The notes below the pieces were generated by a model that was not told the origin of the DNA, did not search any database, and worked only from the letters and a program-made list of their open reading frames with translations. The position numbers were made by a program, and so were the translations under genes. From Hyphomicrobiales bacterium (lineage in GTDB: Bacteria > Pseudomonadota > Alphaproteobacteria > Rhizobiales > Rhizobiaceae): a DNA stretch of 64,000 bases. This document shows, piece by piece, positions 4,099 through 27,805 of the stretch. Every line of letters begins with the position of its first letter. Positions within the stretch are counted from its first letter, which is position 1. The DNA lies in NCBI GenBank assembly GCA_900467685.1, contig UBQX01000010.1, positions 1 to 64,000 of the forward strand, in the 5' to 3' direction.

Positions 4099-4172
4099 TG
4101 GGGAATAGTTCAACGGTAGAACGACGGACTCTGACTCCGTTAATCTTGGTTCGAATCCAGGTTCCCCAGCCA
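4099..4172 (+). tRNA. tRNA-Gln (anticodon CTG), also an integration site
   Basis: The cloverleaf is readable. The acceptor TGGGGAA pairs with TTCCCCA, the D-arm lies around AGTTCAACGGTAGAAC, the anticodon stem is ACGGA/TCCGT with loop CTCTGAC (anticodon CTG), and the T-loop is GGTTCGAATCC. G73 and an encoded CCA end at 4172. The last ~17 bases (from ATCCAGGTTCCCCAGCCA) recur at 6743-6760, directly ahead of a second copy of the following sequence, as expected for an attachment site of a tRNA-targeting integrase. Confidence 0.97.
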
Positions 4173-4440
4173 ATCTCACTAAATTCCTGAATAGTTTGCT
4201 TTTTCTGCCCGTTGTGGATCACGTTTTGGCATCATTGGCGACCTGATGCCCAGAACTGATGTCCAAAGGTGATGCCCACGCTGTTTTTTCGCAGCGGCAT
4301 CGCCCTTGGCAAAACAGGGTGTCCTTGCCATGGCCGTACGCCACGAGGTCGAAAATCTGGTCCGCCGCGGAAATATCTTTTACTGGCGGCCGCGTATCCC
4401 AAGCTGCTTCATGTCCTGCCCATCCGGCAGTCGGCTTTCA
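4156..4440 (+). repeat. Direct repeat copy A: tRNA-Gln 3' end plus integrase upstream region and 5' coding part
   Basis: This ~285-bp segment is repeated in the same orientation at 6743-7028 at well over 90 percent identity by eye. It contains the tRNA 3' end, an intergenic stretch (TTCCTGAATA and TTTGCTTTTTCTGCCCGTT are conserved) and the first ~37 codons of the integrase frame. The arrangement matches two related elements inserted one after the other at the same tRNA, each rebuilding the tRNA end. Confidence 0.85.
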
Positions 4441-6555
4441 CTCAGTCTTCAGCTTTCCGATCATAAAAAGGCTCAGGTGATCGCGCGGCGGCTCAACCTC
4501 CGCCTGGCAGAACTGAAGCAGGAACGACGGGAATTCATGAGCACGAGAGAACAGCTTCAAAAGCTCTTCAGCCATATCCGCGATCAGTTCCTCGATGATC
4601 TCGAGAACATCAGCATCATGGCCAAGCGCCACGGTCGCGCGGGCGATGTCATCGAGATGGAACTCGATCTTGAGGCAGGCTGGGCCTATGAACTGCTCGC
4701 GAAATTCGGAACGCGCGATCTGACACTGGAGGGTGATTGTCCGGGTCTCGCGTTTCTCCTGACACATGACGTGCCTCTCTCCCACGTTGCGGCCATCAAG
4801 TCGAATTTTCTCGGCGAGTTGAAGATCGCCCGCAGCGCCGGATTTGAGGAGCGTATTCGGGTGCTGATGTCGAGCTTCGACATCCCCGATACCGTGCTTA
4901 ACCGCGAGAAGGCGATGACGCAGTTCTTCGAGGCGCGTGCGGCCGCTCTCCTGACAATCGACGAACGCCACGCGCTCGTGGACAAGAGCAAAAGCGAATT
5001 CACGCGAGAGCGGCACACCGAGGCTGTTCCGGTCGCTCCCGTTAAGGCCGCACAGCCTGCGCCGTTATCGGCCACGGTTGTGGAACAGCTTCCTTTCTCG
5101 AGCGAACCTGTCCTGGTCGATGGACCCGAAGGCTCACTTCCGTACCTCGATCTCACCCCCAGACAGAAGGAAAACAATTCGAAGATCCAGCCAGAAGACG
5201 ACAGGAAGCCACAGCGGGTGGTTCCGGTCGCTGATTTCGAAGAGGAATGCGAAAAGCTGATCAAGAACATGGGAACGGAATGGGAGCCCACAACCGCGAG
5301 CGACGCGATGGCTCTTGTGCGCATGTTCAAAACTGTCCTCGAAGAGCACGGCGTTCAGCATTCAGGCCAGATTGAACAGTTCCACATCGGCAAACTACGT
5401 TTGCATTTCAACGACATTCCGGTCAACTGGGGCAAGAGCCCACGCATGCGGGCAATGTCGGCTCCTGATTTGCGCGACGAGGGACGTAAGCTTAGGGAGG
5501 CCGCTGAACGTAGTGGTGAGAAGGCAAAGGTAGGGTTGAGTGCGGCGACGATCCGCAAGCACTTCGGCAACCTTCAGCATTTCCTCAAACACCTGCGTGG
5601 GCACGGCTTCGAAATCGAGAGCTGGACTTTCGAGGGCTTGCGTCCCCGCAAGCCCAAGGCCGGGGAAGTTCGTCTGCAGCAGTACAAGCCGTCACCCCAG
5701 GATCTCGCTTCAGTCTTTTCAAGTCCGATCTATACCGGATCGTTGAATTTTGATCGGGGCCGGAAAAAGCCCGGACCGCACGTGTTCCATGATGCTGTAT
5801 ATTTCCTACCGCTCATGTTCACCTATCTTGGGGCGCGGCGCAGCGAATTTGCCGGGCTGGCAATCGACGACATCGCCCGCGATGAGCATGGTGTTGTCGT
5901 TTTGGTGAGAAACAATGATCTGCGAAGGCTGAAGAACGTTCAGTCGGATCGCAAACTCCCTTTGCCGGACGAGCTAATCCGTCTCGGTTTCCTCGAATAC
6001 TATTCGGCCATCAAGAGCCTTGGCTATAAGGCGCTCTTTCCGGATTTATTCTCGGACAAGACGGATAACGATCCGGGCGATCGTTTCTACGACGTATTCA
6101 TACCCATTATGCAGGAAGCGCTTGGCGAGAGAATGTGGGGAAGGGCGCTCCATGCATTTCGCCATGGAATGGCAGATACGCTGAAACAGGCTGGCGTTTC
6201 GGAAGCTGTGATCGATGATATGTTTGGTGTTCAAGAACTCGCAACGGCCGTCCAGCACAATATTGCGGTTGTCGCAATCGTCTTCAACAACAACGCCTAC
6301 GGCAACGTGCTCCGCGACCAGAAGCAGACCTATTCGGGCCGATATATCGGCTCCGATCTCACGAACCCCGATTTCGTCAAACTGGGCGAAAGCTTCGGCG
6401 CAAAGTCCTATCGGGCCACTTCGCCGTCCGAGTTGAAGGCAATGCTCACCGAGGCTCTTGAGCTGAACGCGCCCGTCCTGATCGAAGTGCCGATCGAGAA
6501 GGGGTCCGAAGCAAGCCCGTGGCCTTTCATTCATCCGGCACCGCCCGTCGCATAA
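4330..6555 (+). CDS. Chimeric ORF: truncated tyrosine recombinase fused to C-terminus of a thiamine-diphosphate (acetolactate-synthase-like) enzyme
   Basis: This 741-residue frame is in two parts. Residues 1 to about 632 are a site-specific recombinase of the long tRNA-targeting type: an N-terminal NIFYWRPRIP motif (DUF6538-like), a SAM-like core-binding region around GLSAATIRKHFGNLQHF, and the catalytic domain with the first Arg in YLGARRSEFAGL and the box-II motif HAFRHGMAD. The expected His/Trp box III and the nucleophilic Tyr are absent. At IDDMFGVQ the frame passes into ELATAVQHN, IVFNNNAYGN and APVLIEVP, which is the C-terminal ~106 residues of a ThDP decarboxylase/carboligase; the NNNAYG motif is part of the ThDP/Mg site. 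Neither half is complete, so recombinase and carboligase activity are both unlikely. I chose the ATG at 4330; a TTG at 4306 is also open. Confidence 0.8.
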   Translation: MAVRHEVENLVRRGNIFYWRPRIPSCFMSCPSGSRLSLSLQLSDHKKAQVIARRLNLRLAELKQERREFMSTREQLQKLFSHIRDQFLDDLENISIMAKRHGRAGDVIEMELDLEAGWAYELLAKFGTRDLTLEGDCPGLAFLLTHDVPLSHVAAIKSNFLGELKIARSAGFEERIRVLMSSFDIPDTVLNREKAMTQFFEARAAALLTIDERHALVDKSKSEFTRERHTEAVPVAPVKAAQPAPLSATVVEQLPFSSEPVLVDGPEGSLPYLDLTPRQKENNSKIQPEDDRKPQRVVPVADFEEECEKLIKNMGTEWEPTTASDAMALVRMFKTVLEEHGVQHSGQIEQFHIGKLRLHFNDIPVNWGKSPRMRAMSAPDLRDEGRKLREAAERSGEKAKVGLSAATIRKHFGNLQHFLKHLRGHGFEIESWTFEGLRPRKPKAGEVRLQQYKPSPQDLASVFSSPIYTGSLNFDRGRKKPGPHVFHDAVYFLPLMFTYLGARRSEFAGLAIDDIARDEHGVVVLVRNNDLRRLKNVQSDRKLPLPDELIRLGFLEYYSAIKSLGYKALFPDLFSDKTDNDPGDRFYDVFIPIMQEALGERMWGRALHAFRHGMADTLKQAGVSEAVIDDMFGVQELATAVQHNIAVVAIVFNNNAYGNVLRDQKQTYSGRYIGSDLTNPDFVKLGESFGAKSYRATSPSELKAMLTEALELNAPVLIEVPIEKGSEASPWPFIHPAPPVA

Positions 6556-6603: not shown

Positions 6604-6739
6604 CGGAAATTATTTCCGCTCGGCGGCCCATATTGACTGATGCCCGAACCCAGGGCACAACTATGGTATCCACGGTCGCTCGTGGCGGAAAAATACAACG
6701 AATTCAAAGGCGATTTCGATAAGTCATTGAAATTGTTAG
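6604..6739 (+). repeat. Direct repeat R1 (partner at 15866-16000)
   Basis: About 135 bp, roughly 85 percent identical by eye to 15866-16000 in the same orientation. Shared blocks include ATTATTTCCGCTCG, CCGAACCCAGGGCACAA, TCGCTCGTGG, AATTCAAAGG and GATTTCGATAAGT. R1 begins inside a perfect 21-bp palindrome (6601-6621: GAGCGGAAAT, T, ATTTCCGCTC). It lies between the chimeric integrase and repeat copy B. No long reading frame covers both copies. The two copies bracket the amide locus. Confidence 0.8.
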
Positions 6740-6742
6740 GGG

Positions 6743-7028
6743 ATCCAGGTTCCCCAGCCATTCGCCTTAAATTCCTGAATAATTTGCTTTTTCTGCCCGT
6801 TATGGATCCCGTTTTGGCATCATTGGCGACCTGATGCCCAAAACTGATGTCCAAAGGTGATGCCCACGCTGTTTTTTCACAGCCGCATCGCCCTTGGCAA
6901 AACAGGGTGTCCTTGCCATGGCCGTTCGCCACGAGGTCGAAAATCTGGTCCGCCGCGTAAACATTTTCTACTGGCGGCCGCGCATCCCAAGCTGCTTCAT
7001 GTCCTGCCGATCCGGCAGTCGCCTTTCA
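6743..7028 (+). repeat. Direct repeat copy B: second tRNA-Gln 3'-end/integrase 5' segment
   Basis: Second copy of 4156-4440 with scattered substitutions, for example AATAGTTTG versus AATAATTTG. It begins with the 18-bp tRNA-Gln 3' sequence including CCA. Divergence between the copies argues against a recent duplication or assembly artefact and for two separate, related insertions. Confidence 0.85.
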
Positions 7029-7110
7029 CGGGCGGGCCTGTCCAGGTCGACGGAACACCCGAAGGTTCTCTTCCGTACCTCGATCTCAATCCCAGACCTA
7101 AGGAAATCAT
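6918..7110 (+). pseudogene. Remnant of a second integrase gene
   Basis: The frame matches the N-terminus of the integrase at 4330 (AVRHEVENLVRR, IFYWRPRIPSCF). Near 7028 it jumps to sequence matching 5104-5170 of the intact copy (CTGTCC-GGTCGA, then TTCCGTACCTCGATCTCA). About 665 bp are therefore missing relative to copy A. Similarity ends around 7110, and everything coding for the catalytic domain is gone. The rest of the 6556-7182 interval holds R1, this remnant and no other gene I can see. Confidence 0.8.
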
Positions 7111-13714: not shown

Positions 13715-13731
13715 CTTCTATCTCCAAACGC

Positions 13732-13771
13732 AAAAAACCTCTGGCACGGAAATCAATCCGTGAACCAGAGG
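13732..13771 (-). terminator. Leader intrinsic terminator ahead of the amide operon (AmiR target)
   Basis: On the minus strand CCTCTGG-TT-CACGG, an 8-nt loop, then CCGTG-CCAGAGG and six Ts. This is a full Rho-independent terminator placed 17 bp before the first structural gene, where it would block the operon unless prevented. The gene just upstream encodes the ANTAR antiterminator AmiR. Confidence 0.85.
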
Positions 13772-13792
13772 CTGCTTAGCCGTGATGTAAAT

Positions 13793-13823
13793 GCGGCAAC
13801 CTTGCCGCTGGGCAAACCTGCCC
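13793..13823 (-). promoter_or_regulatory. Tandem hexaloop hairpins: candidate ANTAR (AmiR) RNA-binding site
   Basis: On the minus strand GGGC-AGGTTT-GCCC (13823-13810), a single A, then GCGGC-AAGGTT-GCCGC (13808-13793). Two adjacent short stems with six-base loops starting with A, directly upstream of a terminator, are the known layout of ANTAR antitermination sites. The second loop has A at position 1 and G at position 4 as in the consensus; the first fits less well. Confidence 0.65.
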
Positions 13824-13907
13824 GTTAGCGAAGAAATTTCATGGGAACGGGCCCCGTGTCAAGCCACGAAATTAGGCAAGCGGAAAATTTGTCCAGACTT
13901 TAGGCAG

Positions 13908-13927
13908 CAGGGCCCTTTAGGGCCCTG
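13908..13927 (-). promoter_or_regulatory. Hairpin just after amiR
   Basis: CAGGGCCC-TAAA-GGGCCCTG on the minus strand, an 8-bp perfect stem 14 bp after the amiR stop, with no U-run. It may set the 3' end of the amiC-amiR message or be part of the leader fold. Confidence 0.5.
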
Positions 13928-13940
13928 GCCCCGAAAACGC

Positions 13941-14564
13941 TTAAGTCTCCGTCCGCCCGGCCATCGGCACGCCGAGGCTTCGCATCGTTTCGTGCGCGGC
14001 AATGATAGCCTCCGCGACCTGTGCCATCGCGACGCGCTTGGTGGTCGCCTGCTCGCGCAGCAACTTATAGGCGGCCTCTTCGTCAAGCCCGTTCATGTTG
14101 CGCAATGCCCAGACAGCCTTTTCGACGAGCCTGCGTCCTTTGAGAGTCTCCTCAAGCTTGAGCACTTTTCCGGCGAGGCGCTTTTCGTAGCCATGCCGAT
14201 ATCTTGCAAGCGCAAATTGCGTGAGGATGCCGAGCGGTCTGAGCGGTTTCGAGATCACACCATGGGCATTGAGATCAATGATGGCCTGAAGCACCGTTGG
14301 ACTTTCGTAAGTCACGATTGCGATGATGGCAGGCTTTTGCGATTCCAGAACCTGCAAGGCCTGTTCAACCTGCGTTTCCTCGACGTGCAAAAAGAGTGTA
14401 TCGACATCTGCCGGAAGCGTTGGAGGCAGGGGCCATGTTGCGCGGACCTCGCAGCCCAATCTCTTCAGGTGGGCGACGAGCACATCGCCGTCTTCATCTC
14501 TGGGGTGGACAACCATGGCGCGTGCGCGACGAAGGTCCTCTATGATCCTGTTCGGTCCTGCCAT
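13941..14564 (-). CDS. amiR: AmiR-type ANTAR-domain transcription antiterminator
   Basis: 207-residue RNA-binding regulator. The N-terminal half is a pseudo-receiver domain without a clear phospho-Asp site (RAMVVHPRDEDGDVLVAHL). A coiled-coil follows (EKRLAGKVLKLEETLKGRR), then the C-terminal ANTAR three-helix domain with the hallmark RLVEKAVWALRNMNGLDEEAAYKLLREQA split around residues 150-180. In Pseudomonas aeruginosa AmiR is held inactive by AmiC and, when freed by amide, stops termination in the amidase leader. The ATG lies 2 bp after the amiC stop, so the pair is translationally coupled. The target leader (terminator plus hexaloops) lies immediately downstream. Confidence 0.9.
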   Translation of the reverse strand: MAGPNRIIEDLRRARAMVVHPRDEDGDVLVAHLKRLGCEVRATWPLPPTLPADVDTLFLHVEETQVEQALQVLESQKPAIIAIVTYESPTVLQAIIDLNAHGVISKPLRPLGILTQFALARYRHGYEKRLAGKVLKLEETLKGRRLVEKAVWALRNMNGLDEEAAYKLLREQATTKRVAMAQVAEAIIAAHETMRSLGVPMAGRTET

Positions 14565-14566
14565 GG

Positions 14567-15724
14567 TCAGCCCTCCAGCCAGGCATCTTCGAAACGGGAT
14601 GCGGTCAGGTAGGGGTCGGGCCGGATAGGGCCGGGGGCTTGCCAGACGATATCGAACAACCCGTCCTCTCTTGCCACGCCGATACGTGGATGCAACCAAA
14701 GGTGGCGCGTGTCCGGGTCGAAACTCAGACGCCCCTCGGGGGCGAGGTAATCCTCTGCCAGGATCTCTTCCGAGATGCGGTGTGTTTCGAGCGAGCCTGC
14801 CCGCTCGAGGGCGCGCGCGAAGAGATGCACCTGTGCATAGGCAGGCTGTGACCACACGCTGGTCGTCATATCCCGGCCGAACCTGCGTTTGAACGCTTCC
14901 ACGAAACGTTCGTTGCTCGCGCCCTCAACGGTCTGGAAGTAGGTTGCGGATAGAATATGGCCCGAGCAAATCTGCGGTCCGATTTCCCGGATTTCCGTTT
15001 CTGCCATTGTGAGACTGGCTATGGGGTAACGGGTGCGGTCTATCCCCGCTTCGGCATACATTCGATAAAAGCGCTGTGCGGGCTTGCCCACGATGGTGGA
15101 AAAAATAGCGTCCGGCTTTAGCCGCTGGATCTCTGCCAGTGCCGAACGGAGCGTGTCTTCGTCGGCGTTGAGCGGAATATAGCGTTCGCTGACAACCTCC
15201 CCACCTTTGGATTCGACGATATCGCGCATGACCCGGTTCGACTCGCGGGGATAGATATAGTCTGCGCCGATGAAATAGATTTTCGGGCCGTAATGCCGCA
15301 GGAGATACTCCGCCAAGGCGAATGTGTTCTGATTGAGCGTTGCCCCCGTGTAGACCACGTTTTCCGAATATTCGAACCCTTCGTACATGGAGGGGTAGAA
15401 CAGCAGCCCGTTGTGCCGCTCGACGATCGGCAATACAGCCTTGCGGCTCGCCGACATCGAACAGCCGAAGATGACCGTCACATCGTCGTCCGTCAGCAGA
15501 CGGCGTGCCAGATTCCGGTAGGCGGTATGGTCTCCACCGGGATCATAGGCGACAGGCGCGATCGGTTTGCCGAGCACGCCGCCGGAGGCATTGATCTCTT
15601 CCACAGCCAGAGCCGTACCGAAGAAATGTTCGGACTCCGTCACCTCCGTTATCCCGCTTCGGGAGAACATAACTCCCACCCGCCATTCTTCGCTCATCTT
15701 GCTACCGCTGTTGTGGACTGCCAT
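14567..15724 (-). CDS. amiC: AmiC-type cytoplasmic amide sensor / negative regulator
   Basis: 385-residue periplasmic-binding-protein fold without a signal peptide, so it stays in the cytoplasm. It shares with Pseudomonas AmiC the segments VVERHNGLLFYP, PSMYEGFEYSENVVY, FIGADYIYPRESN and the C-terminal PIRPDPYL. The known role is to bind amide or the anti-inducer and to sequester AmiR. It is encoded directly upstream of and coupled to amiR. A start 27 bp later (MSEEWRVG) is possible. Together with the periplasmic receptor downstream, it gives the locus an intracellular and an extracellular sensor of related fold. Confidence 0.9.
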   Translation of the reverse strand: MAVHNSGSKMSEEWRVGVMFSRSGITEVTESEHFFGTALAVEEINASGGVLGKPIAPVAYDPGGDHTAYRNLARRLLTDDDVTVIFGCSMSASRKAVLPIVERHNGLLFYPSMYEGFEYSENVVYTGATLNQNTFALAEYLLRHYGPKIYFIGADYIYPRESNRVMRDIVESKGGEVVSERYIPLNADEDTLRSALAEIQRLKPDAIFSTIVGKPAQRFYRMYAEAGIDRTRYPIASLTMAETEIREIGPQICSGHILSATYFQTVEGASNERFVEAFKRRFGRDMTTSVWSQPAYAQVHLFARALERAGSLETHRISEEILAEDYLAPEGRLSFDPDTRHLWLHPRIGVAREDGLFDIVWQAPGPIRPDPYLTASRFEDAWLEG

Positions 15725-15865: not shown

Positions 15866-16000
15866 CGGAGATTATTTCCGCTCGCCCTTCCATATTGGCT
15901 GATATCCGAACCCAGGGCACAAATATGATACCCACGTTCGCTCGTGGCTGAAAAAGATAAGGAATTCAAAGGTGATTTCGATAAGTAATTGAAATCTTTA
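15866..16000 (+). repeat. Direct repeat R2 (partner R1 at 6604-6739)
   Basis: Second copy of the ~135-bp repeat, about 85 percent identical by eye to R1. The palindrome at its start is imperfect here. The repeat ends exactly where similarity to an ABC ATPase begins (16001), i.e. at a junction. Between the amiC start (15725) and R2 I see only the amiC upstream region. Confidence 0.8.
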
Positions 16001-16452
16001 GTTGCGGCGCTGGCAGAGGTAGGCCTCGAAGCCCAAACTGACAGATATCGCGGCCAGTTGTCGGAGGCATGAAGCAGCGTGTCGGGATTGCCCGGACGCT
16101 GGCATATGAACCCAAACTGCTATTGATGGATGAGCCTTCGGCGCGCTCGACGCGCAGACCCGCCGCGTGATGCATGAACTGCTACTGCGGGTCTGGGAGA
16201 AGCACCGCGCCACTGTTCTTTTCGTCGCCCATGATGTCGATGAAGCGCTGCTTCTCGCCGGCCACGTTCATGTCATGTCGCGCGCGCCGGGTCGCATCAT
16301 CAGAAGCTATGACCTCACCCCGCCCGCGCGCCATCCCGCGCGAAAATCCGGTGCTGCTCGACACGCGGGAGGAAATTCTGGCGCTCCTCAAGTCCGGCCC
16401 GGCAGACCCCGCTAGTCGACGTATCCAGGGCGAAGGGCTATTTCTTTCCTGA
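16001..16452 (+). pseudogene. 5'-truncated, frameshifted ABC ATPase (SsuB/TauB/NitD-like)
   Basis: Three frames in turn encode the C-terminal two thirds of a nitrate/sulfonate-type ATPase. They read [19 protein letters not shown], then [23 protein letters not shown], then [33 protein letters not shown] and VMSRAPGRII, and finally PVLLDTREEILALLK. Single-base losses near 16064 (in the LSGG signature) and 16138 (after MDEP) and a shift near 16335 break it, and the Walker A half is missing. It faces opposite to the neighbouring operons and is not the ATPase of the 19.6-22.4 kb transporter, which has its own. Confidence 0.85.
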
Positions 16453-16502: not shown

Positions 16503-18017
16503 TTATCGAAAAGCCGGAACGCGCCGCTCCATGCCGACATCCTGCTCCATCGCTTGCAAATACATTTGTCGATAATAGGCAAGACGATCGTCCATTGCCG
16601 CGCTCGCATCCGCAAGCGCCTTGCTTCGGGACTGAAACAATGACCTTGCCTCGGCCATGATTGCTTTTCTGTCGATCCGCAAGGCGTGTCCGTCCTTCGC
16701 AACGACTTCGCCTGCGACCATGGTCAGTCGAACGGAGCGACCGTTTTCACAATGCACCAATTGGCGCGGCAAATTGTTGAGGGGCAGGAATGTCAAACTG
16801 TCGAGCGACAATAAAATGAGGTCGGCTGGTGCGCCGGTTTCCAGCGTTCCCAGCCCCGCGACACGCATGGCCCTGCCGCCGCCCGTGGTTGCTGCCTCCA
16901 GCACTTCCTTCGCCTGCGGCCAATGCGCGAAATCCGTCGCGGTCAGCGAGTGAATCATTCCGGCCGTCTTCATGACACTCCACATGTTGATCGCATCATC
17001 CGCTATGGCCTCGTCGACGCCCAGGCAAATGGGAATTCCACGATCCCGAATAGCGCGAAACGGCATGATGCCACTGCCGAGCCTGAGATTGCTGTTCGGA
17101 TTGTGCGCGATCTGCGCACCACTGGCGGCGATAAGATCCAGATCGTCATCATCCACCCAAATTGCATGAATGATGTTCATCCGCTCGCTGAGCAAGCCGA
17201 GGTCGGCCGTATAACGGACCAGCGAACGCCCGCCGAGGCGCTCATTGCCGAAAACCCTCTGCAGGCGGGTCTCCAGAATGTGGACATAAAATGGTAGGTC
17301 GTGCTTCCGGCTAAGTTCGTCCAGAGAACGAAAATATTCTGGCGTGACACGCTGCGGCGCCGAACAGGAAACCGCTGCCTGCACCCTGCCTGCCGCCTGA
17401 CCATGCCATTTTGAAATCAGATGATCGTAGAGCGCCAGAAGGTCTTCTGCCGTAGACCCGGAACGTTTGGAAAGCTCAGCCTTCAGATCAGGCGGCACGA
17501 GATCGCCCAGATAGGGCAGCTTTTCGAGCTCTGCCACTTCCGGCTGATCGAGCGCCACACGCGCCCGTATGCCACTATCGACATAGGCTTGCATGACGGC
17601 ATCGATGATGTCGGGTTCAGGTTCCGGTACGAAGAAGCAATCGTCCTGAACCGCGGTCGTGCCGTTTTCCAGCATTTCAATGCAGCCCAGCATGGTACGC
17701 AGATAGGCCTCACGCGGCGTGGGTCGCAGGATATCAAGCTCCGGGCACTCGTAGAGCATGAATATTTCAAGCGGCAGCCCCGGCAGGCGCCCCTTCATAT
17801 GATTGACCGAGGAGTGGAAATGGCCATTGATCAGACCCGGCATCAACAGGTCGCCATGGCCCTCGATGAGCGCTTCATCCGACCCCACGGCAAGATCCGC
17901 CCCGATCTCCGCAATCCTTCCGTCGCGAACGCGCAGGTCACACGGGGCGCTCACGCCATCCTCCCGAGAAAGGTCAAGCAGGCATACGTTCCGAAAAAGA
18001 GTATTCGGCATCATCAC
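16503..18017 (-). CDS. Amidohydrolase-superfamily deaminase/hydrolase (TrzA/AtzA-like)
   Basis: 504-residue metal-dependent hydrolase of the amidohydrolase fold. The N-terminal metal motif is PGLINGHFHSS, a later His is in IIHAIWVDDDD, the ANPN-like strand reads IAHNPNSNLRLGSG and the catalytic Asp is in CLGVDEAIADD. Family members deaminate or dechlorinate N-heterocycles (s-triazines, guanine, cytosine, adenosine analogues). It is the last gene of the importer/hydrolase operon, 60 bp downstream of a second amidohydrolase to which it is only distantly similar, suggesting two consecutive steps on one imported compound. The substrate is unknown. Confidence 0.82.
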   Translation of the reverse strand: MMMPNTLFRNVCLLDLSREDGVSAPCDLRVRDGRIAEIGADLAVGSDEALIEGHGDLLMPGLINGHFHSSVNHMKGRLPGLPLEIFMLYECPELDILRPTPREAYLRTMLGCIEMLENGTTAVQDDCFFVPEPEPDIIDAVMQAYVDSGIRARVALDQPEVAELEKLPYLGDLVPPDLKAELSKRSGSTAEDLLALYDHLISKWHGQAAGRVQAAVSCSAPQRVTPEYFRSLDELSRKHDLPFYVHILETRLQRVFGNERLGGRSLVRYTADLGLLSERMNIIHAIWVDDDDLDLIAASGAQIAHNPNSNLRLGSGIMPFRAIRDRGIPICLGVDEAIADDAINMWSVMKTAGMIHSLTATDFAHWPQAKEVLEAATTGGGRAMRVAGLGTLETGAPADLILLSLDSLTFLPLNNLPRQLVHCENGRSVRLTMVAGEVVAKDGHALRIDRKAIMAEARSLFQSRSKALADASAAMDDRLAYYRQMYLQAMEQDVGMERRVPAFR

Positions 18018-18077
18018 TCCAGGGTATCGTTGAGTTATCGGAACTTCCCCAAAGCGGGGGCGGTTATGGTCCGATGC

Positions 18078-19619
18078 TTAAATCCGGGAAGAAGCCCCGT
18101 AGAACGGCCGTCGCGGCGGCTCGGTCTTGAGATAATCCGCGTAGAACGCCTCGACATGGGCAAATACCTCGTGACTCAGCTTGAGGCGTGCCTGCTCGTC
18201 TGCGTTGCGGGGTTTTGCGAGGGCCGCTGCGATCTGGGCGAGAATTTCATCTCGATCCACCTTCAGAAAACGTCCGTCCTGATAGATGATTTCGCCGTCC
18301 ACCAGAACGGCATGCACATCCTTGCTTTTTGCGCGGTAAATCATCGCATCAAGCGGCGGTATATCAGTATCCTGATAGGGATATGTCGCACTGTCATAAT
18401 CAAGAATGACGGCATCGAGACGGAGACCCGCATCCAGCCGCCCGATTTCACCGGCAAAGGCGGTGGTGTTGGCTCCATGTTCAGAAGCCATGCGGAAAAC
18501 CTGCGTGGCACTTGGAACGGCGTTACGATCCATGCCGGGAATGCGATGGACAGTCATTGCCATCCGCATTTCCTGTAGCATGTCGCGGTCTTCGTTGATG
18601 CCGGCCTCGTCAAGACCAAGCCCCACGGTCATGCCGCGCCTTTCGAGCTCCATCAGCGGCAAAACACCCGAGCGAAGGCGGAAATTCGAGGAGCAGTTGT
18701 GGCAGACGCAGGTTCCCGTGCCCGCACAAATCTCGATATCCTCCTCCGTCATCCACACGCCGTGGCCCAGCGTGAGCTTCGGCCCCAACAGGCCCAACCT
18801 CTCCAGATGCTTCACCGCAGTTGTGCCGGTGCGACGACGGGCATATTCCTTCTGATAGGCCGTTTCCAGCAAATGCATGTGCATCGGGCGGCCGGACTTG
18901 TCGGAGCGCTCCTTCATGGCCAGCAATCCGTCATCGGTCATCCAGTGAAGATTGGCGGGTGCAAGCTGAATACGGGCACGCGGATTAACCGTGGTTTTGG
19001 TCAAGTCATCGAACAGCCGCATGAATTCGCCGAAGCTCATGGTTTGGCGCGCAAGCTGTGCAGCCATTGCCTGCCCGAGTTCCGACGGAAGGCGGGCGCA
19101 GAAGTCCTCATCCGCCTCATAGACGAAGCGGTTCTGTTCGCGAACGGCGTAGCAGTAGGAAACCCGCATGCCCACGGCCTCATAGCCTGCCAGCACACCT
19201 TGCGCCGAGGCGCGCACCTCGTCGTAATGGCCTGCTGCCCAGCCCTGGATATGCTGCACCGTGGTAATGCCCGATGAAATCATCTCGAAAGCCGAGAAAA
19301 GCGTATCGAGCTTCGGATCGATGTTACGCATTTTCAGCCGGGCAGCGAACCACAGTTCAAGCGGATAATCCGGTGCGCCATGCTGCAGCGGCGTAACGCC
19401 AAGGTGGTGATGGCTGTTGACCAGGCCGGGCATGACGAGGTGATGCCCGTAGCTGGTTTCTTCCGCATGAGGATAGGCGGCGCGAATTTCCGCAGCGGTA
19501 CCTGTCGCCAGAATCAGGCCGTCCTCATGAGCAATGGCGCCGTTTTCAACAATTTCGGGCTCGTGTGCGTTCAATGCGCCTGAAACGACCCAGCGGGCAG
19601 AGATGATTTTGATGGTCAT
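18078..19619 (-). CDS. Amidohydrolase-superfamily protein (AtzB / 8-oxoguanine deaminase-like)
   Basis: 513-residue amidohydrolase with metal motif PGLVNSHHHLG, a further His in LTLGHGVWMTEED, a Cys-rich segment GTCVCHNCSSNFRLRSG where many members have NPxSN, and the Asp motif GLGLDEAGINED. The H-H-H at the first metal site and the CHNC insert distinguish it from the downstream paralogue. It overlaps the ATPase gene start by 4 bp. The role is inferred as hydrolysis or deamination of the ligand carried by the adjoining importer. Confidence 0.82.
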   Translation of the reverse strand: MTIKIISARWVVSGALNAHEPEIVENGAIAHEDGLILATGTAAEIRAAYPHAEETSYGHHLVMPGLVNSHHHLGVTPLQHGAPDYPLELWFAARLKMRNIDPKLDTLFSAFEMISSGITTVQHIQGWAAGHYDEVRASAQGVLAGYEAVGMRVSYCYAVREQNRFVYEADEDFCARLPSELGQAMAAQLARQTMSFGEFMRLFDDLTKTTVNPRARIQLAPANLHWMTDDGLLAMKERSDKSGRPMHMHLLETAYQKEYARRRTGTTAVKHLERLGLLGPKLTLGHGVWMTEEDIEICAGTGTCVCHNCSSNFRLRSGVLPLMELERRGMTVGLGLDEAGINEDRDMLQEMRMAMTVHRIPGMDRNAVPSATQVFRMASEHGANTTAFAGEIGRLDAGLRLDAVILDYDSATYPYQDTDIPPLDAMIYRAKSKDVHAVLVDGEIIYQDGRFLKVDRDEILAQIAAALAKPRNADEQARLKLSHEVFAHVEAFYADYLKTEPPRRPFYGASSRI

Positions 19620-20401
19620 AGCAGCTCCTGCTCGGCGAAGGCCTTGGTGACCTCTTCTGCCAGCAGCGCTTCACATTCGCGCCCCAGCTCTATCATTTCA
19701 GGTGAACGCAGATCGCGCGGCCGCGGGGCATCGATGTGCAGCTCAGCCTTGATCTGCCCGGGGCGGGCGGTAAACACGACGATACGGTCGGCAAGGGCCA
19801 GCGCTTCATCGATGGAGTGGGTCACGAGCATGACCGAAGCACCCGAACTCTTCCAGATTTCCAGCAGATGCTCCTGCATGCGGGCGCGGGTCTGAATGTC
19901 GAGCGCAGCAAAGGGCTCATCCATCAACAGAAGTTCGGGGTTCATTGCCAATGCGCGAGCCAGCGCAACTCTTTGCCGCATGCCGCCGGAAAGCTGCTCG
20001 GGCCGCCGGTCACCAATACCGCCGAGACCCACGCGCTTCATCAGCGCATCCACGCGTTCGGCCCGCTCCTGCGGCTGGCCGCCCCTGATGCTCAGGCCGA
20101 AACCCACATTGTCGCGAACCGAGAGCCATGGAAACAAGGCTGCCTCCTGGAAGATGAGGCTGCGTTCCGGTGCCGGTTCTGTAATCGCCAGGCCATCGAA
20201 GGTTATGGTGCCGGAGGTCGCCTGCTCCAGACCCGCTGCGATGTAGAGCAGAGAGCTTTTTCCGCAACCCGAAGGCCCCAGCAGCACGACGAACTCTCCC
20301 CGCGCGACGTTCAGCGACAGACTGTTGACGGCTGGCACGGGAGCCGGGCCATCGGCATTCCAGACCTTCGTCAGGTTGGTGATGGAAAGACCAAGGGCCA
20401 T
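19616..20401 (-). CDS. ABC transporter ATPase, NitT/TauT (SsuB) family
   Basis: 261-residue ATPase. Walker A is LLGPSGCGKSSLL, the Q-loop region is LIFQEAALFPWLSVRDNV, the signature is LSGGMRQRVALARALA, Walker B is LLLMDEPFAALD and the H-loop is LVTHSIDEALALAD. The FPWLSVRDN segment and the C-terminal ARPGQI are typical of sulfonate/taurine/nitrate-type importers. Its stop overlaps the amidohydrolase start, and it lies 1 bp after the permease stop, so it is tightly operonic. Confidence 0.9.
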   Translation of the reverse strand: MALGLSITNLTKVWNADGPAPVPAVNSLSLNVARGEFVVLLGPSGCGKSSLLYIAAGLEQATSGTITFDGLAITEPAPERSLIFQEAALFPWLSVRDNVGFGLSIRGGQPQERAERVDALMKRVGLGGIGDRRPEQLSGGMRQRVALARALAMNPELLLMDEPFAALDIQTRARMQEHLLEIWKSSGASVMLVTHSIDEALALADRIVVFTARPGQIKAELHIDAPRPRDLRSPEMIELGRECEALLAEEVTKAFAEQELL

Positions 20402-20402
20402 G

Positions 20403-21299
20403 TCAGGCTCCTTTCACGGTTGAAGGGCCAACCCACCAGAGCACCTTGCGCTGAATGAGGCCAAGCGTCTGGTCGAAGGCAAAGCCGGTCAGGCCGATCA
20501 GTGTCATTGTGAAGAAGACGAGGCTGGCGTTGAAGGTGTTGCGTGCCATCATGGTGACCTGACCGAGACCGGACCCAACGCCCACAGCCTCGGCAATGAG
20601 CACGACCATCCAGGCGGCAAACAGGTTCATTCGCAGCGTCACGAACAGTCCCGGCAAGATTGCGGGCAGGATAACCCGCAGATAGATCTGGCGTTTGGAA
20701 GCGCCCATGACGCGGGCAAGCTGGATATAGTGCTTTGGCACCGCATCCACCTGCGCAAGCGTGGCCAGGACCATGATGAAAAACACGGCGATGAATACGA
20801 GAAAAATCGCCGGAGGGTTGCCGATGCCAAAGAAAAACACGGCCACCGGCAGCCACGCAACCGGCGAGATGGGCGCAAGCATGGTCACAAGCGGCAGCAC
20901 AAGCTTGCCGAAGATTTCAAAATAACGAATAGCAAGCCCCACCACCAAGGAGATGGCAAAGCCCAGCACCAGCCCCACGAACACCCGAAGCGAGGACCAG
21001 CCGATGACACCGAGGACAGACCAGATGGAGCCGCCCGCATTCAGCGCCCCGGCCCTTGCCCCTGTCGGGTCAAAAAAGCGGAACTGATCCGGCAGGTTGG
21101 TAAGAAAGATATGCGGCGGCGGCAGCAGAAGCGGATTTGCCCACTTCTGCCACCAGGCCAGTTCCCAGATGCCGACAAACAGGCTCAGCGATGCCAATAC
21201 CCAGGCTGTTGCAACAATCCTGCGACGTGCCTTTGCAAGCGCGGCGTGAAGACGCGGGTTCGGCCCCGCCGGGGCGGATGAAAGTATCATGTCGGTCAT
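20403..21299 (-). CDS. ABC transporter permease, NitT/TauT (SsuC) family
   Basis: 298-residue inner-membrane permease with about six helices. The cytoplasmic EAA loop reads ARVMGASKRQIYLRVILPAI. The N-terminal ~40 residues are cytoplasmic and polar. I choose the ATG at 21299, with CGGAAG upstream, over a GTG at 21314 that abuts the preceding stop. It probably works as a homodimer with the adjacent ATPase. Confidence 0.88.
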   Translation of the reverse strand: MTDMILSSAPAGPNPRLHAALAKARRRIVATAWVLASLSLFVGIWELAWWQKWANPLLLPPPHIFLTNLPDQFRFFDPTGARAGALNAGGSIWSVLGVIGWSSLRVFVGLVLGFAISLVVGLAIRYFEIFGKLVLPLVTMLAPISPVAWLPVAVFFFGIGNPPAIFLVFIAVFFIMVLATLAQVDAVPKHYIQLARVMGASKRQIYLRVILPAILPGLFVTLRMNLFAAWMVVLIAEAVGVGSGLGQVTMMARNTFNASLVFFTMTLIGLTGFAFDQTLGLIQRKVLWWVGPSTVKGA

Positions 21300-21314
21300 G
21301 GGATCTTCCGTCAC

Positions 21315-22382
21315 TTAGGCCGTCTTGAGCTTCAGGGAGCTGTACAGATCGGAATTGGCGGCAATGACGGACTCAAGCAGCGACCAGTCGATCGCATTGT
21401 CCGGCAGGACATTTTTCACATAGCCCATGCTCTTCATGGACTCAGAGCGAGCCTTGAAGAATGCGGTGTTGTTGCGCTGATCGATCATCACCGGCTGGCG
21501 GGATTGCGCCAGTTTCAACGCCTCGAGCGAGGTTTTGTAATAGGTGCCCGCAGTCAGTTCGAGCGCATCGTTGACATTGGTTTCCGACTGGGACTGGGCG
21601 GTCATCATCGCCTTGATGAGCGCCTTGAGGGCCTCCGGTTTGGATTCGATCAGCGGCACGGCGGCAGCGAGAACGCAATCGGAATAGCGTGCGCCGTAAA
21701 TGTCCTTCCCGTCGGTCAGAACGGTCGAACCGGCCCGCTCCTTCAGGCATTGCGTGGCATAGGGCTCGATATGGCAAACCGCATCGATGGCGCCATTGAC
21801 GAAAGCTGCAGCAAGCTCGGGAGACGTGTTGAAATACTTGACCTCAACATCCTTGAACGAAAGCCCCGCCTTGGCAAGATAATCATAGGGAAGCACTTCA
21901 AGCGTATCGGCCTGGAAGGTGCCGATTGTCTTTCCCTTCAGATCCGCAGCCTTGGTTATGCCCTGGGCACCGATGAGCACGCAGCCTTCAACACCGGCCC
22001 CGGCAATGATCCGGACAGGCGCACCTTGATCGACAAGCGTAATGAAGTTCGAATAGGGAATGACCGAAACGTCAACGATTCCAGCGCCGAACAGCGTGAC
22101 GACATCAGTGGTGGTCGGCGTTACGACGAATTCGAGATCGACGCCGTCAGCTGCGGCCAGGTTGCGTTCCTTGGCAAGAAAGATGCCGAGATTGCAAAGG
22201 CCTGCGCCATGCGTGGCCTTGAGCGTCGTATTTCCGGCCGCCAGAACGCTACCGGGAGAAAGCAGGCCGCCGAACGACATTGCCGCCGCCAGGCCGGCAA
22301 ATGCGCCTGCACTGCCTTTCAGAAAGCCTCTGCGCGAAGCTTCCATAATCATTTCATGGGAATTACCACACCGTTCGCACAT
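21315..22382 (-). CDS. NitT/TauT-type substrate-binding protein with Cys-rich N-terminus and Tat signal
   Basis: 355-residue NMT1/THI5-like solute receptor. The start ATG at 22382 has GAAGGA upstream. It begins MCERCGNSHEM, then a twin-arginine signal ASRRGFLKGSAG with a hydrophobic core, and AGNTTLKATHG begins the mature domain. Family features are GIFLAKERNLAAADGVDLEF, GAGIVDVSVIPYSNF and LKGKTIGTFQ. Tat export implies folding, possibly with a cofactor, before secretion; the two Cys ahead of the Tat motif would be removed with the signal. First gene of the importer/amidohydrolase operon. The ligand is unknown, probably a nitrogen heterocycle or other small polar molecule given the two hydrolases. 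Confidence 0.83.
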   Translation of the reverse strand: MCERCGNSHEMIMEASRRGFLKGSAGAFAGLAAAMSFGGLLSPGSVLAAGNTTLKATHGAGLCNLGIFLAKERNLAAADGVDLEFVVTPTTTDVVTLFGAGIVDVSVIPYSNFITLVDQGAPVRIIAGAGVEGCVLIGAQGITKAADLKGKTIGTFQADTLEVLPYDYLAKAGLSFKDVEVKYFNTSPELAAAFVNGAIDAVCHIEPYATQCLKERAGSTVLTDGKDIYGARYSDCVLAAAVPLIESKPEALKALIKAMMTAQSQSETNVNDALELTAGTYYKTSLEALKLAQSRQPVMIDQRNNTAFFKARSESMKSMGYVKNVLPDNAIDWSLLESVIAANSDLYSSLKLKTA

Positions 22383-22485
22383 GTCATCGTCCTTCGTTGC
22401 GGTCCCGCATGACGACGATGGAATATGGACCACTCAAGATGGGCCGGTCGTCAAACGTGACAAGCTCGGCACGCCAACCTTGAGA

Positions 22486-23805: not shown

Positions 23806-26220
23806 TCATGCGTGTCCGGCAGCGCGTGCGGTCCGGATGGATGCCCCGTCTGCAGATGACCATTTGAGATCGCCGTCGTACCGCCAGGCCATCTGCCCCT
23901 GATCGTCCAGCGAAAAGAGATGCAGCCAGCCATTGTCGAACAGGGCGCGCACATGAGCGTGCCGCCTCAGGACATCGCTGATCGCCTCCTTGGGCGCTTC
24001 TACCGCCACCGTCAGCCGCAACGGCTCGTGGACAAAATCGGCGCCGTCGTGAACCGATTGCCAGGGCAGACCGGCGCGCAGGTTGCCGCCGTTGCCTTCC
24101 ACGACGCCGATGCCGCCGACAACGTTATGCAGCAGCTTGTTGCCCGCGCCGAACAGCGAGGGTGCAACGGAAGAGCCGAAATACTGCAGACTGATCCAGC
24201 TTGCGACGACGACAGGCGCAGTCAGGATCAGTTCCAGCACCTTGAAGTCCTGATCCCTCCGCCAGACATAATCGTGCAGAAAGACTTGCCCCTCCAGAGA
24301 CCCTCCGGCCGTCCGGTTGCGGGGCGCGGCAATGAAGGCCCGGCAGCCGGCCAGACCGAGTTCGGGGCGGACCTCTGCCCAATCGCGGCTCCGCTCCAGC
24401 ATCGTCTCGGCACTGGCGCGCGGCAGGCGCTGCGCCCGTTCCGCGCGCGTCAGTCTTCCGGCCTGGGCCAGCCACTGCTGCAACCGGCTGATATCGCCCG
24501 CGGGGATCTCCACCTCCAGATCGTCCTCGAACATCGTCACGGAGTCGGTGGTCGTATCGTGAAGACCTGCCAGGAACACGGTATCCTCGGGAATGACGAT
24601 GCTCTTGTCGAGCAAGGCCTTACGCACCACCCTGTCATTCAGCAGATCGGCAAGCAGCCGCGCGTTCACATCGCCGGCATATCCGCCGCAGGCGCCGCAA
24701 TGCAGCGCACTGGCATAGGGATTGTTCACGACGTTCGCGCCATGGCCGCAGATAAGCACGAAGCGCGCAAAGCCTTCGGTGAGCGACATGGCCTTCAGCA
24801 CCGTCTGCGCCATCGCTGACTTCGTTTCGAGATCGAGGCCGCCGGCAAAGCTGGGCTTGGCCGCGTCTGCCGCCTTGCCCTTGCCGAACCCGAGGCCGTC
24901 GCGCAGCAGCTTGCCGGCATAGACCGGACCCATCGCTTCGACGAAGGCAAATGAAGACACGGCGGCGAGCTTGAACCTCCCCCAGGCGCGAACCGCGCGT
25001 GCGCCGAACCGGGCCTGCCGGTCTGCTTCCGCGTCATGATCGACGGCGCTGCAGGTAAACACGGAAGGCTTCAGCAGCACCGGCAGCCGGTTCTCGGCGA
25101 CGTCGGATGCAAAACCCTTGTGACTGGCACCAAGCCCGAAGAAACCGGCAAAGCCAAGCGTCCTGATGCCCGGATCGACGCTTTCCAGCGACCGCCGGAA
25201 AACCTCCGACCGAACGTCGATGCAGAAGGCCGCCTGCAGCACCGGCCGCATCTCCGCAACCTTGGTAGCAGAAGGCCGGGAGAGCGTGGCGGCAAGCTTG
25301 CGCTGGGCGGCACGTTCGGCGGCGAGCTGCAAGACACCGTCGGTGGCCGTGTCGAGGTCTACCGAGATGGGTGCGTTATGCGCCCTCCGGATTTTCATCC
25401 ACTGGCTTTCGATGGCCCCCTTGTGGCGCGCGTACAGCGCCTCTTCGAAGACGAGCCGGACGGCAAGCAGTTCCAGCGCTGTCGTATCGGTCCGCCCCTC
25501 GATTTCCGCTTTGAACTGGATGTGGCGCGCAAGCTGCGCCCAGCCGCCGAGGGTGAGCAGAAGCTGGTGAAAATAGGTTCCGGGTTCGCCGCCAAGGCCC
25601 AGCGAAACAGCGGCCCTTTCAATGGCGGCCTCCGGCGTTTCGGGCGTATCGGCAACATGTATGCCGAACCCCTTCAGCCCCAGAATTTCCGGTGTCAGGT
25701 CGTGGCTGGCAAAGGCGCGCCATGCAGCATAGAGCCCGTTGCGCCGGGAAGCCGCCCAAAGCGCCTGGCCCTCATCGAAGAAGCCGGCAGCGAAAGTTCC
25801 GATCCGCTCGCCGATGAGGCCCGCCCAGTCTTTGCCCGTGGCGCTGGCCGCCAGATCGGCAACCGTCGGCAGGGCAGGGGCCGGTGGCAAGTTTGTCGCA
25901 ACGGCCGCCTTCAGCGTGGTGAGATCGAGACCTGCTGACTTGGGAGTCGAGCGAAGAGCCGCAAGCAGATCCTCCTCGGTGATCTCGCCCGCTGCGATCT
26001 TCCGGGCGTAATGCGTGCGTGGCAGCGCGAGCCGCACGCCGCCGATCCGGGCGAGCAGGGCGGCGGTCTGGTCCCGCGTCTCAGTCGTCTGGCCGAGAAA
26101 GGGATTGACGGCAACGGTCGCGCTCAGCGGCCAGGCGGGAGGAATGGCGCGCACCGCCTGATCTGCCGCTTGCGCCAAGGCGTCGCCAAACAGCGTGTCG
26201 ATGGTGGTCATATCGGTCAT
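23806..26220 (-). CDS. dabA: DabA, carbonic-anhydrase-like subunit of the DAB inorganic-carbon pump (DUF2309)
   Basis: 804-residue cytoplasmic subunit that associates with DabB and is thought to convert CO2 to bicarbonate vectorially, driven by the membrane ion gradient. The beta-carbonic-anhydrase-like zinc site is visible: CIDVRSE (Cys-x-Asp, about residue 335) and, further on, [24 protein letters not shown] with His and Cys, split over two motifs. I start it at ATG 26220, 4 bp after the dabB stop; an ATG 57 bp upstream would lie inside dabB. Length is typical for the family. Confidence 0.9.
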
Positions 26221-26224
26221 CGGT

Positions 26225-27805
26225 TCAATCCTTGGAAGAGAGGGACGCGGCAGGGGCCTGCGGAACGGTCCAGCCACCGAGCAGGCGGTCGAAAAGGGCG
26301 TTCACGTAGAGGCCATTGGCGAGATGCACCCGCAGCCCTGCTGCTGCCGGATGATAGGCCCAGAGCGGGAAGAGCGATTGCGCAACCGCGACGACACCGA
26401 AGGTAACGACAGCGAGCAGCATCAGCGCCCACTCCAGCGGGCCCGGCTGCGGCGTGGCGGGCAACGCGCCATGCATCAGCGCCTCGGCGATCCTCTGCAG
26501 CGCGAAATAGGCTGTTGCAGCGGAGATCGAGTAAAGCGAGGTTCGCCAGGTCAAGGCCCAGGGCGCCGCGTCCGCCAGCCCTTGGGCAATGAGATAGGCG
26601 ACGCCGAAGATGAGGATTGCGCCGAGCGCCATTGCCTGCGGTGGCTTGTCGGCAAAGCCGAACAGCAGGCCGATCGCCGCATAGATCGCAAGCGCCAGCA
26701 GGAAAGCCCGGCCGACGGCCTTGGCGCTGGGAATGGCGACCGGCCCCGGCCGCCGGATGGAGGCGACGGTCTCGACCGCCGATCCGGAGGACAGAAAGGC
26801 ATGCGCCTTGTAGAGCGAGTGAGCGACGATGTGCAGGAGCGCAATGGGGAAGAGTGCCAACCCGCATTGCAGGATCATGAAGCCCATCTGCGCGACCGTC
26901 GACCACGCGAGTGAGGTCTTCACCGCCGGCTGGGTCAGCATGACGACGCTGCCGAAAACCGCCGTAAAGCCGCCGATCATGACCAGCACGGCCAGCACGA
27001 TTGGAGCCTGCAGCATGACGTCGGCAAAGCGGATGAGGAGGAAACCACCCGCATTGACGACGCCGGCATGCAGCAGCGCCGACACTGGCGTTGGCGTTTC
27101 CATGACTTCCGTCAGCCAGCCATGGGTCGGGAACTGCGCCGATTTCAACAGGGCCGCGACTGCCAGCAGTGCAGCAGCGGCGAGGGTGAGCGGGAGGCCA
27201 TGCCCCTCGCGAGCCGCGGCAAGGATCGTCGCGATGTCGCCGGTCCCGAACGAAACGGCCAGCAGGATCAGCGCGCCGATGAGTGCGACATCGCCCGTGC
27301 GGGAGACGATGAATTTCTTGCGGGCCGCCCGCCCTGCTGCAATCCGTTCCGGATAGAAGAGCAGAAGCTGATGGAGGAGGAGACTGACCGCCACCCAGGA
27401 CAGCGCAAGCTGCAAAAGCGTGCCTGACTGCACGAGCAGAAGGACCGCCGCGAGCGTCGCCGTCATCCAGCCGGTAAACGGCCCCTGCCGCGCCTCGCCG
27501 TCCAGAAACGTCCCGGCGTAGCGCAACACGATCCAGCCGATGAAGGAGACGAGCAGGAGCATCGTCAGGCTGACCGGATCGACCCGCGAGGCGAATGTCA
27601 GGACGCCAAAGCCGATCGCCGGGCTGGTCCCGGAGCCGTGGACCGCGAACGCGATGCCGGAAACGAGTACTGCACCGATCGACCCGAGAGCAGACCATTC
27701 GGCCACGCGGATCGCGAGGCGCGGCCGAAGCCCGGGTGACAGAAAGGCAAAGGCGGAAGCACCGGCGAGAAGAAGCGGTGCGAGAAGCGGCAGGGCATGG
27801 ATCAC
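26225..27805 (-). CDS. dabB: DabB, proton/cation-channel subunit of the DAB inorganic-carbon pump (NuoL-like)
   Basis: 526-residue membrane protein with about 13-14 helices, related to the NuoL/MrpA antiporter-like subunits: [67 protein letters not shown] in separate segments. The key Lys ([10 protein letters not shown]) and the His of [14 protein letters not shown] are kept. I choose GTG 27805 with GGAG 7 bp upstream. It forms an operon with dabA. A divergent LysR gene starts 125 bp away and probably controls it. Confidence 0.9.

Follow-up and report, generated by a model that had tools for sequence, protein, structure and literature searches.

We analysed a stretch of 64,000 nucleotides (nt) from contig UBQX01000010.1 (assembly GCA_900467685.1), called the window below, whose positions serve as coordinates throughout. 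Its minus strand carries every gene of the finding reported here: an amiC-amiR pair, then a 226-nt leader and a six-gene operon for uptake and hydrolysis. We consider it likely, at roughly 80% probability, that AmiC/AmiR antitermination controls this operon through a leader in which a recruitment hairpin (P1) is followed by a mini-hairpin (P2) that overlaps an intrinsic terminator. This reading is the best supported, since the protein families, the conservation of the leader, its compensatory changes and a promoter-like box that is itself conserved all point the same way. A sequence-only reading of the window had proposed AmiC/AmiR antitermination of the operon; this part stood, but the hairpin pair it named was wrong, and P1 with P2 fits instead. 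The gene set appears to serve nitrogen scavenging in a soil bacterium and to be kept off by an RNA stop signal, which the sensor pair lifts once an amide-like nutrient is available.

Both regulators belong to the expected families. The amiC-like gene (15724–14567, 385 amino acids) encodes an amide sensor that matches the Pfam family Peripla_BP_5 (E = 1.1e-128) and, over residues 12–380, P. aeruginosa AmiC (1pea and 1qnl, E = 5e-92). A signal-peptide-like N-terminus was seen in the periplasmic receptor of the operon and not in AmiC (judged by eye), consistent with a cytoplasmic sensor. The adjoining amiR (14564–13941, 207 amino acids) encodes a pseudo-receiver, AmiR_N (PF21332, E = 3.6e-37), and a C-terminal ANTAR domain (PF03861, E = 4.2e-13), both over cut-off; its structure matches are AmiR (1qo0_D, E = 2.7e-24) and EutV (6wsh, E = 1.2e-7). 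Residues 12–380 of the 385 in AmiC and 4–188 of the 207 in AmiR align with the chains of the solved AmiC-AmiR complex (1QO0). As had been proposed, the two genes are coupled, with 2 bp between them, and the leader of 226 bp (13940–13715) runs from the amiR stop to the hydrolase start.

An ANTAR target is described as two hexaloop hairpins, the second of which overlaps a terminator; linkers in the eut leaders are 5–12 nt, and a linker of 3 nt caused a drastic loss of induction (Ramesh 2012, PMC3369931; this and the other papers are cited here from excerpts). Among the predicted elements of our leader, the pair that fits this layout is P1 and P2. P1 (GCGGC-AAGGUU-GCCGC, 13808–13793) has both A1 and G4 in its loop, and is followed after 11 nt by P2 (GGC-UAAGCA-GCC, 13781–13770), whose last bases are the first bases of the terminator stem at 13772. 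The loop of P2 has G4 and begins with U, and we file the leader, on its predicted elements, as a variant of the dual-hexaloop ANTAR target and not as a strict member. The terminator (13772–13732) is complete and sits 17 bp ahead of the operon, as the sequence-only reading had stated: 14 pairs, one of them G-U, with a 2-nt bulge (stem 13772–13737), and a U6 tract (13737–13732) ending 17 bp before the TTG start at 13714. A simple terminator scan did not list it, probably because of the bulge, and an Rfam scan of the window gave only two tRNAs at the gathering threshold. The pair named earlier consisted of P1 as its second member and, as its first, a hairpin that we call P0 (GGGC-AGGUUU-GCCC, 13823–13810), whose loop has no G at position 4. 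Both stem-loops are present and can be drawn with 6-nt loops, but they are not the canonical pair, because they lie 1 nt apart compared with the reported 5–12 nt and neither touches the terminator. P2 had been overlooked.

The whole leader folds better than 200 out of 200 dinucleotide shuffles (z = -3.89). When it was shuffled 20,000 times, 2,356 shuffles contained a terminator by the rule applied. In 335 of them a G4 hexaloop hairpin overlapped it, and in 3 the pattern was complete, with an A1/G4 hexaloop hairpin 5–12 nt ahead of the overlapping one. P2 is the sole one of the three hairpins that competes with the terminator. Forming P2 with a shortened terminator costs 3.3–3.4 kcal/mol in 19 of the 23 close leaders and 6.3–7.9 kcal/mol in L051–L053, which suggests that the terminator is the default state in those leaders.

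We then compared 43 distinct leaders of this AmiR subfamily, using a script that picked hairpins by stem and not by loop sequence. P1, P2 and the terminator were found together in 42/43, with the register doubtful in L063 and L064. The P1-P2 linkers measure 8–12 nt (15 in the doubtful L063). P1 loops have A1 in 40/42, G3 in 38/42 and G4 in 32/42, while P2 loops have G4 in 39/42 and A1 in 1/42. The GGCU half of P2, which lies outside the terminator, is conserved in all 23 close leaders. An alignment of 27 leaders has C-G as the top pair of P1 in every row, and systematic evolution of ligands by exponential enrichment with NasR likewise prefers C-G there (PMC7496416). In the same alignment, 95% of the P0/P1/P2 cells are paired, with 17 both-side changes, and 94% of those in the terminator base, with 18; 0/500 shuffles reached any of these values. 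Both-side changes fall in four of the eight counted terminator pairs, in three of the five P1 pairs, eight times in one A-U/G-C pair of P0, and once in P2 (AGC/GCU, in L072). Since kin sequences can beat shuffles without structure, slid controls matter here; the hairpins were 95% paired in register and 29–62% paired out of register. Among the 23 close leaders, stems are near-constant, with both-side changes in one pair and two cells. A model of the leader had one strong match in its own genome, directly after amiR (E = 6.7e-23), followed by matches at E = 0.40 and 0.76 (150 of 2,215 first-look candidates scored). With one significant match there, and other matches in the window at E = 0.11 and up, a wider regulon in this genome is unsupported. 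Under stricter filters, the model matched 6 of 101 relatives at E = 0.01 or better, two of them strongly.

These comparisons bear on a different use of the same hairpins, in which AmiR binds P0-P1 (13823–13793) and blocks termination remotely, 13781–13770 being a mere by-product of the terminator base. P0 and P1 are in the minimum-energy fold and P2 is not, and P0 has compensatory changes and is kept, as a GRGC-type stem, in 37/42 leaders. Six subfamily members (L086, L070–L073 and L097) nevertheless do without a GRGC-type P0, and all but L097 have P1, P2 and the terminator. The P0-P1 gaps of 0–2 nt fall outside the 5–12 nt of the E. faecalis eut leaders (PMC3369931), neither hairpin can exclude the terminator, and the GGCU half of P2, outside the terminator, is conserved in 23/23 close leaders. 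We find remote blocking unlikely, and we rejected P0-P1 as a functional dual hairpin on its 1-nt gap, its lack of terminator overlap and the six members without P0.

A promoter-like box lies between amiR and P0 (13862–13834), with TTGACA at 13862–13857, a 17-nt spacer and a weak -10, AAATTT, at 13839–13834. TTGA or TTGC stands 51–57 nt ahead of P1 in 41/42 leaders, and TTGAC in 29 (raw counts without a chance control). From this near-fixed distance, transcription probably starts just ahead of P0. The weakness of the -10 box would suit a terminator that is constitutive or responds to something other than AmiR, as plain attenuation or as the 3' end of amiCR, the operon being driven from elsewhere. 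The -35-like box at its near-fixed place argues against this, as do the position of the terminator, 17 bp before the first start codon with P1 and P2 ahead of it in 42/43 leaders, and the finding that the set travels with AmiR across families; we regard it as quite improbable. Hardly credible at all is ANTAR control of translation or RNA stability instead of read-through: ANTAR stem-loops that overlap ribosome sites are mentioned for Mycobacterium tuberculosis (PMC8934654), but here the ribosome site (GGAG, by eye) is part of neither P0-P2 nor the terminator, and the terminator covaries.

Several observations weigh against antitermination through P1 and P2. The strict pattern, with A1/G4 in P1, G4 in P2 and a linker of 5–12 nt, holds in only 30/43 leaders, and position 1 of the P2 loop in the window is U, not the canonical A. 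P2 lacks G4 in L051 and has altered loops in L063 and L064, L005 (the same locus as L097) lacks P1 by the criteria used, and the predicted terminator of L038, whose genome also has several broken frames, lacks its base pairs. P2 is nearly invariant, so that its covariation amounts to the one change in L072, and the terminator already sets limits on its 3' half. Further pair types in the hairpins are not above shuffles (366/500 as high). The -10 box is a poor one, and the promoter-like box is absent from the output of the promoter scan. Finally, EutV Met172, reported as essential for RNA binding (PMC8934654), is Thr here.

In the mechanism we infer, cytoplasmic AmiC would hold AmiR inactive until a ligand frees it. 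The ligand can be named as 'amide-like' at most, and a literature search on inducers of such transporters gave nothing specific among the matches listed. A promoter just after amiR would start a short leader, with little beyond P0, P1, P2/terminator and the ribosome site. When no AmiR is free, the terminator would fold and the operon would be off. A free AmiR dimer would be caught by P0 and/or P1 and then pass to P2, which would pair its GGC(U) with (A)GCC and take the bottom pairs of the terminator stem. The stem would thereby be shortened and parted from the U-tract, and polymerase could read through; published models of ANTAR leaders likewise have P2 shorten the stem and separate it from poly-U (PMC3369936). 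With a start after amiR, the regulator genes would lie upstream of their own terminator and escape it, unlike in the amiEBCRS order.

The most unusual feature of the switch is a Thr in place of the Met plug. Tyr164 of EutV stacks on G4, and Met172 plugs the loop (PMC8934654); we took Tyr 166 and Met 174 of the solved chain as these two residues, an offset of two. In the window AmiR, these places are occupied by Tyr166 and Thr174. R144, Y166 and R177, equivalent to EutV Arg142, Tyr164 and Arg175, are kept in 48/48 loci of at least 40% identity, in a comparison that covered these three contacts and in which some loci repeat one gene. The Met172 equivalent is Thr in the same 48/48 loci and Met in 38/39 loci at 24–40% identity, and alignments place Met there in EutV, Rv1626 and P. 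aeruginosa AmiR. The Met plug is not taken as defining AmiR, and Thr does not exclude membership. A tree of 99 AmiRs puts the 43 Thr-type rows in one group by a single change (support 98/88), so any link between Thr and loop type is a single case and not a correlation.

In Thr-type leaders, bases 1 and 6 can pair in 41/42 P1 loops and 40/42 P2 loops. For Met-type loci, the script saw the pattern in 18/59 distinct downstream stretches, many with other genes directly after amiR; there it often placed P1 out of register, with G4 in 15/18 and 1-6 pairing possible in 1/18. Placed by eye, unscored and in a register choice biased by the A1/G4 rule, 22 Met-type P1 loops all have G4, and six are pairable at 1-6. 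These placements make the contrast between the two types weaker than the script suggests. We put forward only tentatively that there is a distinct mode of ANTAR recognition, in which one AmiR lineage with Thr in place of the Met plug reads 1-6-pairable, tetraloop-like loops and tolerates G3 instead of G4 in P1, and a sub-lineage added P0 as a second recruitment site, giving a three-site antiterminator. The Thr-type sensors have S at position 83 in 42/47 loci, S at 106 in 46/47 and M, I or L at 107 in 47/47, positions that we take to belong to the ligand pocket of AmiC; position 106 is the one that differs between 1pea and 1qnl.

P0 seems to have joined an older P1-P2 switch at a later stage, because the 37 leaders with a GRGC-type P0 are the same rows as one AmiR clade (support 100/99, names matched by eye) and the six Thr-type rows named above lack it (judged by eye for L097, the L005 locus). 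Among the 37, L052 has a 7-nt P0 loop; the lax P0 rule of the script also admits short unrelated stems in L071–L073. EutX RNA offers a partial precedent for a third hexaloop (PMC8934654). In the distant same-phylum AmiR locus L086, P1, P2 and the terminator (2132–2229), without P0, stand directly ahead of a receptor gene with no nitrilase between.

The operon has the content named by the sequence-only reading, with each gene at its place. The first gene (13714–12869) encodes a nitrilase-superfamily hydrolase (CN_hydrolase, E = 4.5e-55), whose nearest solved structures are archaeal nitrilases (3ivz, E = 1.2e-60). Its PEL, KYRK and CYDG motifs retain the E/K/C positions, presumably catalytic; the expected motif positions are retained in both hydrolases of the operon, with roles that we assume. 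It is followed by a periplasmic receptor of HAAT/urea type (12829–11681; Peripla_BP_6, E = 2.6e-86; 8tg1, E = 3.3e-57; urea receptors, about 1e-50) and a LivH-type permease (11624–10791; BPD_transp_2, E = 1.3e-33), for which the top NCBIfam model is UrtB, under its cut-off. Next comes a LivM-LivG fusion of permease and ATPase (10789–9041, start provisional), with BPD_transp_2 and ABC_tran in a single frame; a single coding sequence of similar length is also present in Agrobacterium vitis and two Rhizobium records. A LivF-type ATPase (9048–8341; ABC_tran, E = 5.8e-31) and an amidase-signature hydrolase (8337–7183; Amidase, E = 2.7e-50; PRK08310, 381.4 bits with a cut-off of 391) complete the operon. 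The label of a urea importer (Urt) was rejected, as the NCBIfam models UrtA, UrtB, UrtC, UrtD and UrtE all score under their curated cut-offs.

To judge from sequence comparison, the arrangement recurs in Rhizobiaceae and beyond. The 12.4-kb query has similar DNA on 42 plasmid records, each of which covers less than 80% of it; most are from Rhizobium, and the closest is from Agrobacterium vitis. Gene order is identical in three mapped records (Agrobacterium vitis and two Rhizobium). A scan of genome contigs by AmiR alignment gave 20 loci, 19 of them with amiC, amiR and nitrilase in order; L055 shows only part of amiR. The amidase is near full length in 15/21 long loci (L033–L050 and L052–L054) and broken, partial, distant or not found in six, and we regard it as accessory because it is missing or broken in some relatives. 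AmiR was matched at E = 1e-30 or better in 38/397 genomes of the order sample and 4/385 of the class sample, and at E = 1e-25 in 13/398 of the phylum sample, the own genome being counted each time. Five same-genus genomes in the sample of relatives gave distant AmiR matches only (best E about 1e-8).

The flanking DNA carries a tRNA at about 4099–4172 (tRNA-Gln, CTG, by eye), whose 3' end is repeated exactly at 6744–6760; its 19-base form, at up to 2 mismatches, occurs at only these two sites genome-wide. A 287-nt direct repeat (4155–4441 and 6743–7029, 94%) spans this 3' end and the start of an integrase-like gene. A further direct repeat of 136 nt (6604–6739 and 15866–16001, 85%, 9.26 kb apart) flanks the entire AmiCR operon, which suggests that a tRNA-linked island, now decayed, may have carried the operon as its cargo. 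In 4/5 same-genus genomes the flank is shared over its length as far as the tRNA; the matches stop just past the tRNA in three, and the fourth runs on into the integrase-like gene. At 4306–6555, a weak integrase domain (DUF6538, Phage_integrase) shares one open frame with the C-terminal portion of a thiamine-pyrophosphate enzyme; recombination may have fused the two by chance at a junction. Just outside the 136-nt repeat, about 16059–16420, is a fragment that by eye resembles a broken ATP-binding cassette (ABC) transporter ATPase gene. Further on are two TRZ/ATZ-type amidohydrolases by an NMT1-type ABC importer (16503–22433), possibly a second set for uptake of nitrogen compounds, and a DabA-like inorganic carbon transporter subunit (23806–26277, Pfam E = 2.4e-247).

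Tractable rhizobia carry this compact, conserved ANTAR leader, and its natural variants include some without P0, some with changed P1 loops and some with a Met plug. Such variants could be used to test the reading of hexaloops by ANTAR proteins and the model of recruitment at one hairpin and action at the next. The locus also points to an amide-like nutrient that related receptors would sense inside the cell and gather outside it. We found no paper on this Rhizobium operon, on its leader with three hairpins or on the Met-to-Thr subfamily among the matches listed, in titles and abstract starts of the open-licence literature. The further claim that the locus takes ANTAR control to a complete system of uptake and hydrolysis does not hold as a novelty in kind, as links to transporters are already published: ANTAR RNAs upstream of urea and nitrate transporters in 2012 (PMC3369931), actinobacterial ANTAR RNAs with a link to ABC transporters in 2021 (PMC8164766), and a Klebsiella plasmid operon of amiE, amiC, amiR and four ABC transporter genes in 2026 (PMC13209695).

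By its predicted elements, the switch is a conserved variant of a known one, from which it differs by a further RNA hairpin and a change in one contact residue. It shares with P. aeruginosa amiEBCRS the AmiC-AmiR pair, the ANTAR leader with its terminator and an amide hydrolase (PMC5259723, PMC3369936). By gene order, amiC and amiR of P. aeruginosa stand downstream of amiE and its leader. In our locus they are placed upstream, a separate promoter-like box is present, and the operon contains an ABC importer and a different hydrolase pair. Klebsiella plasmid pKOS9W-1, with its amiE-amiC-amiR and ABC transporter operon (PMC13209695), likewise has AmiCR by an ABC importer and hydrolases. AmiCR also adjoins importer and hydrolases in a K. 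grimontii plasmid locus, but there, compared by gene map alone, importer and amidase precede amiC-amiR and a nitrilase-related gene follows. Agrobacterium tumefaciens pAspH13-3a (amiC-amiR-receptor-urtBCDE-hydrolase) resembles our locus in having the regulators first, then a 249-bp gap, receptor, ABC importer and CN-hydrolase; it differs in an AmiR match of 35% identity, in permease and ATPase annotated separately, and in a hydrolase that comes last in the stretch shown. The Enterococcus faecalis EutV/eut leaders share the P1-linker-P2 hexaloops with P2 overlapping the terminator (PMC3369931). Both eut loops have A1/G4, whereas here P2 has U1 and P1 lacks G4 in 10/42 leaders, an extra P0 precedes P1, and the Met172 equivalent is Thr.

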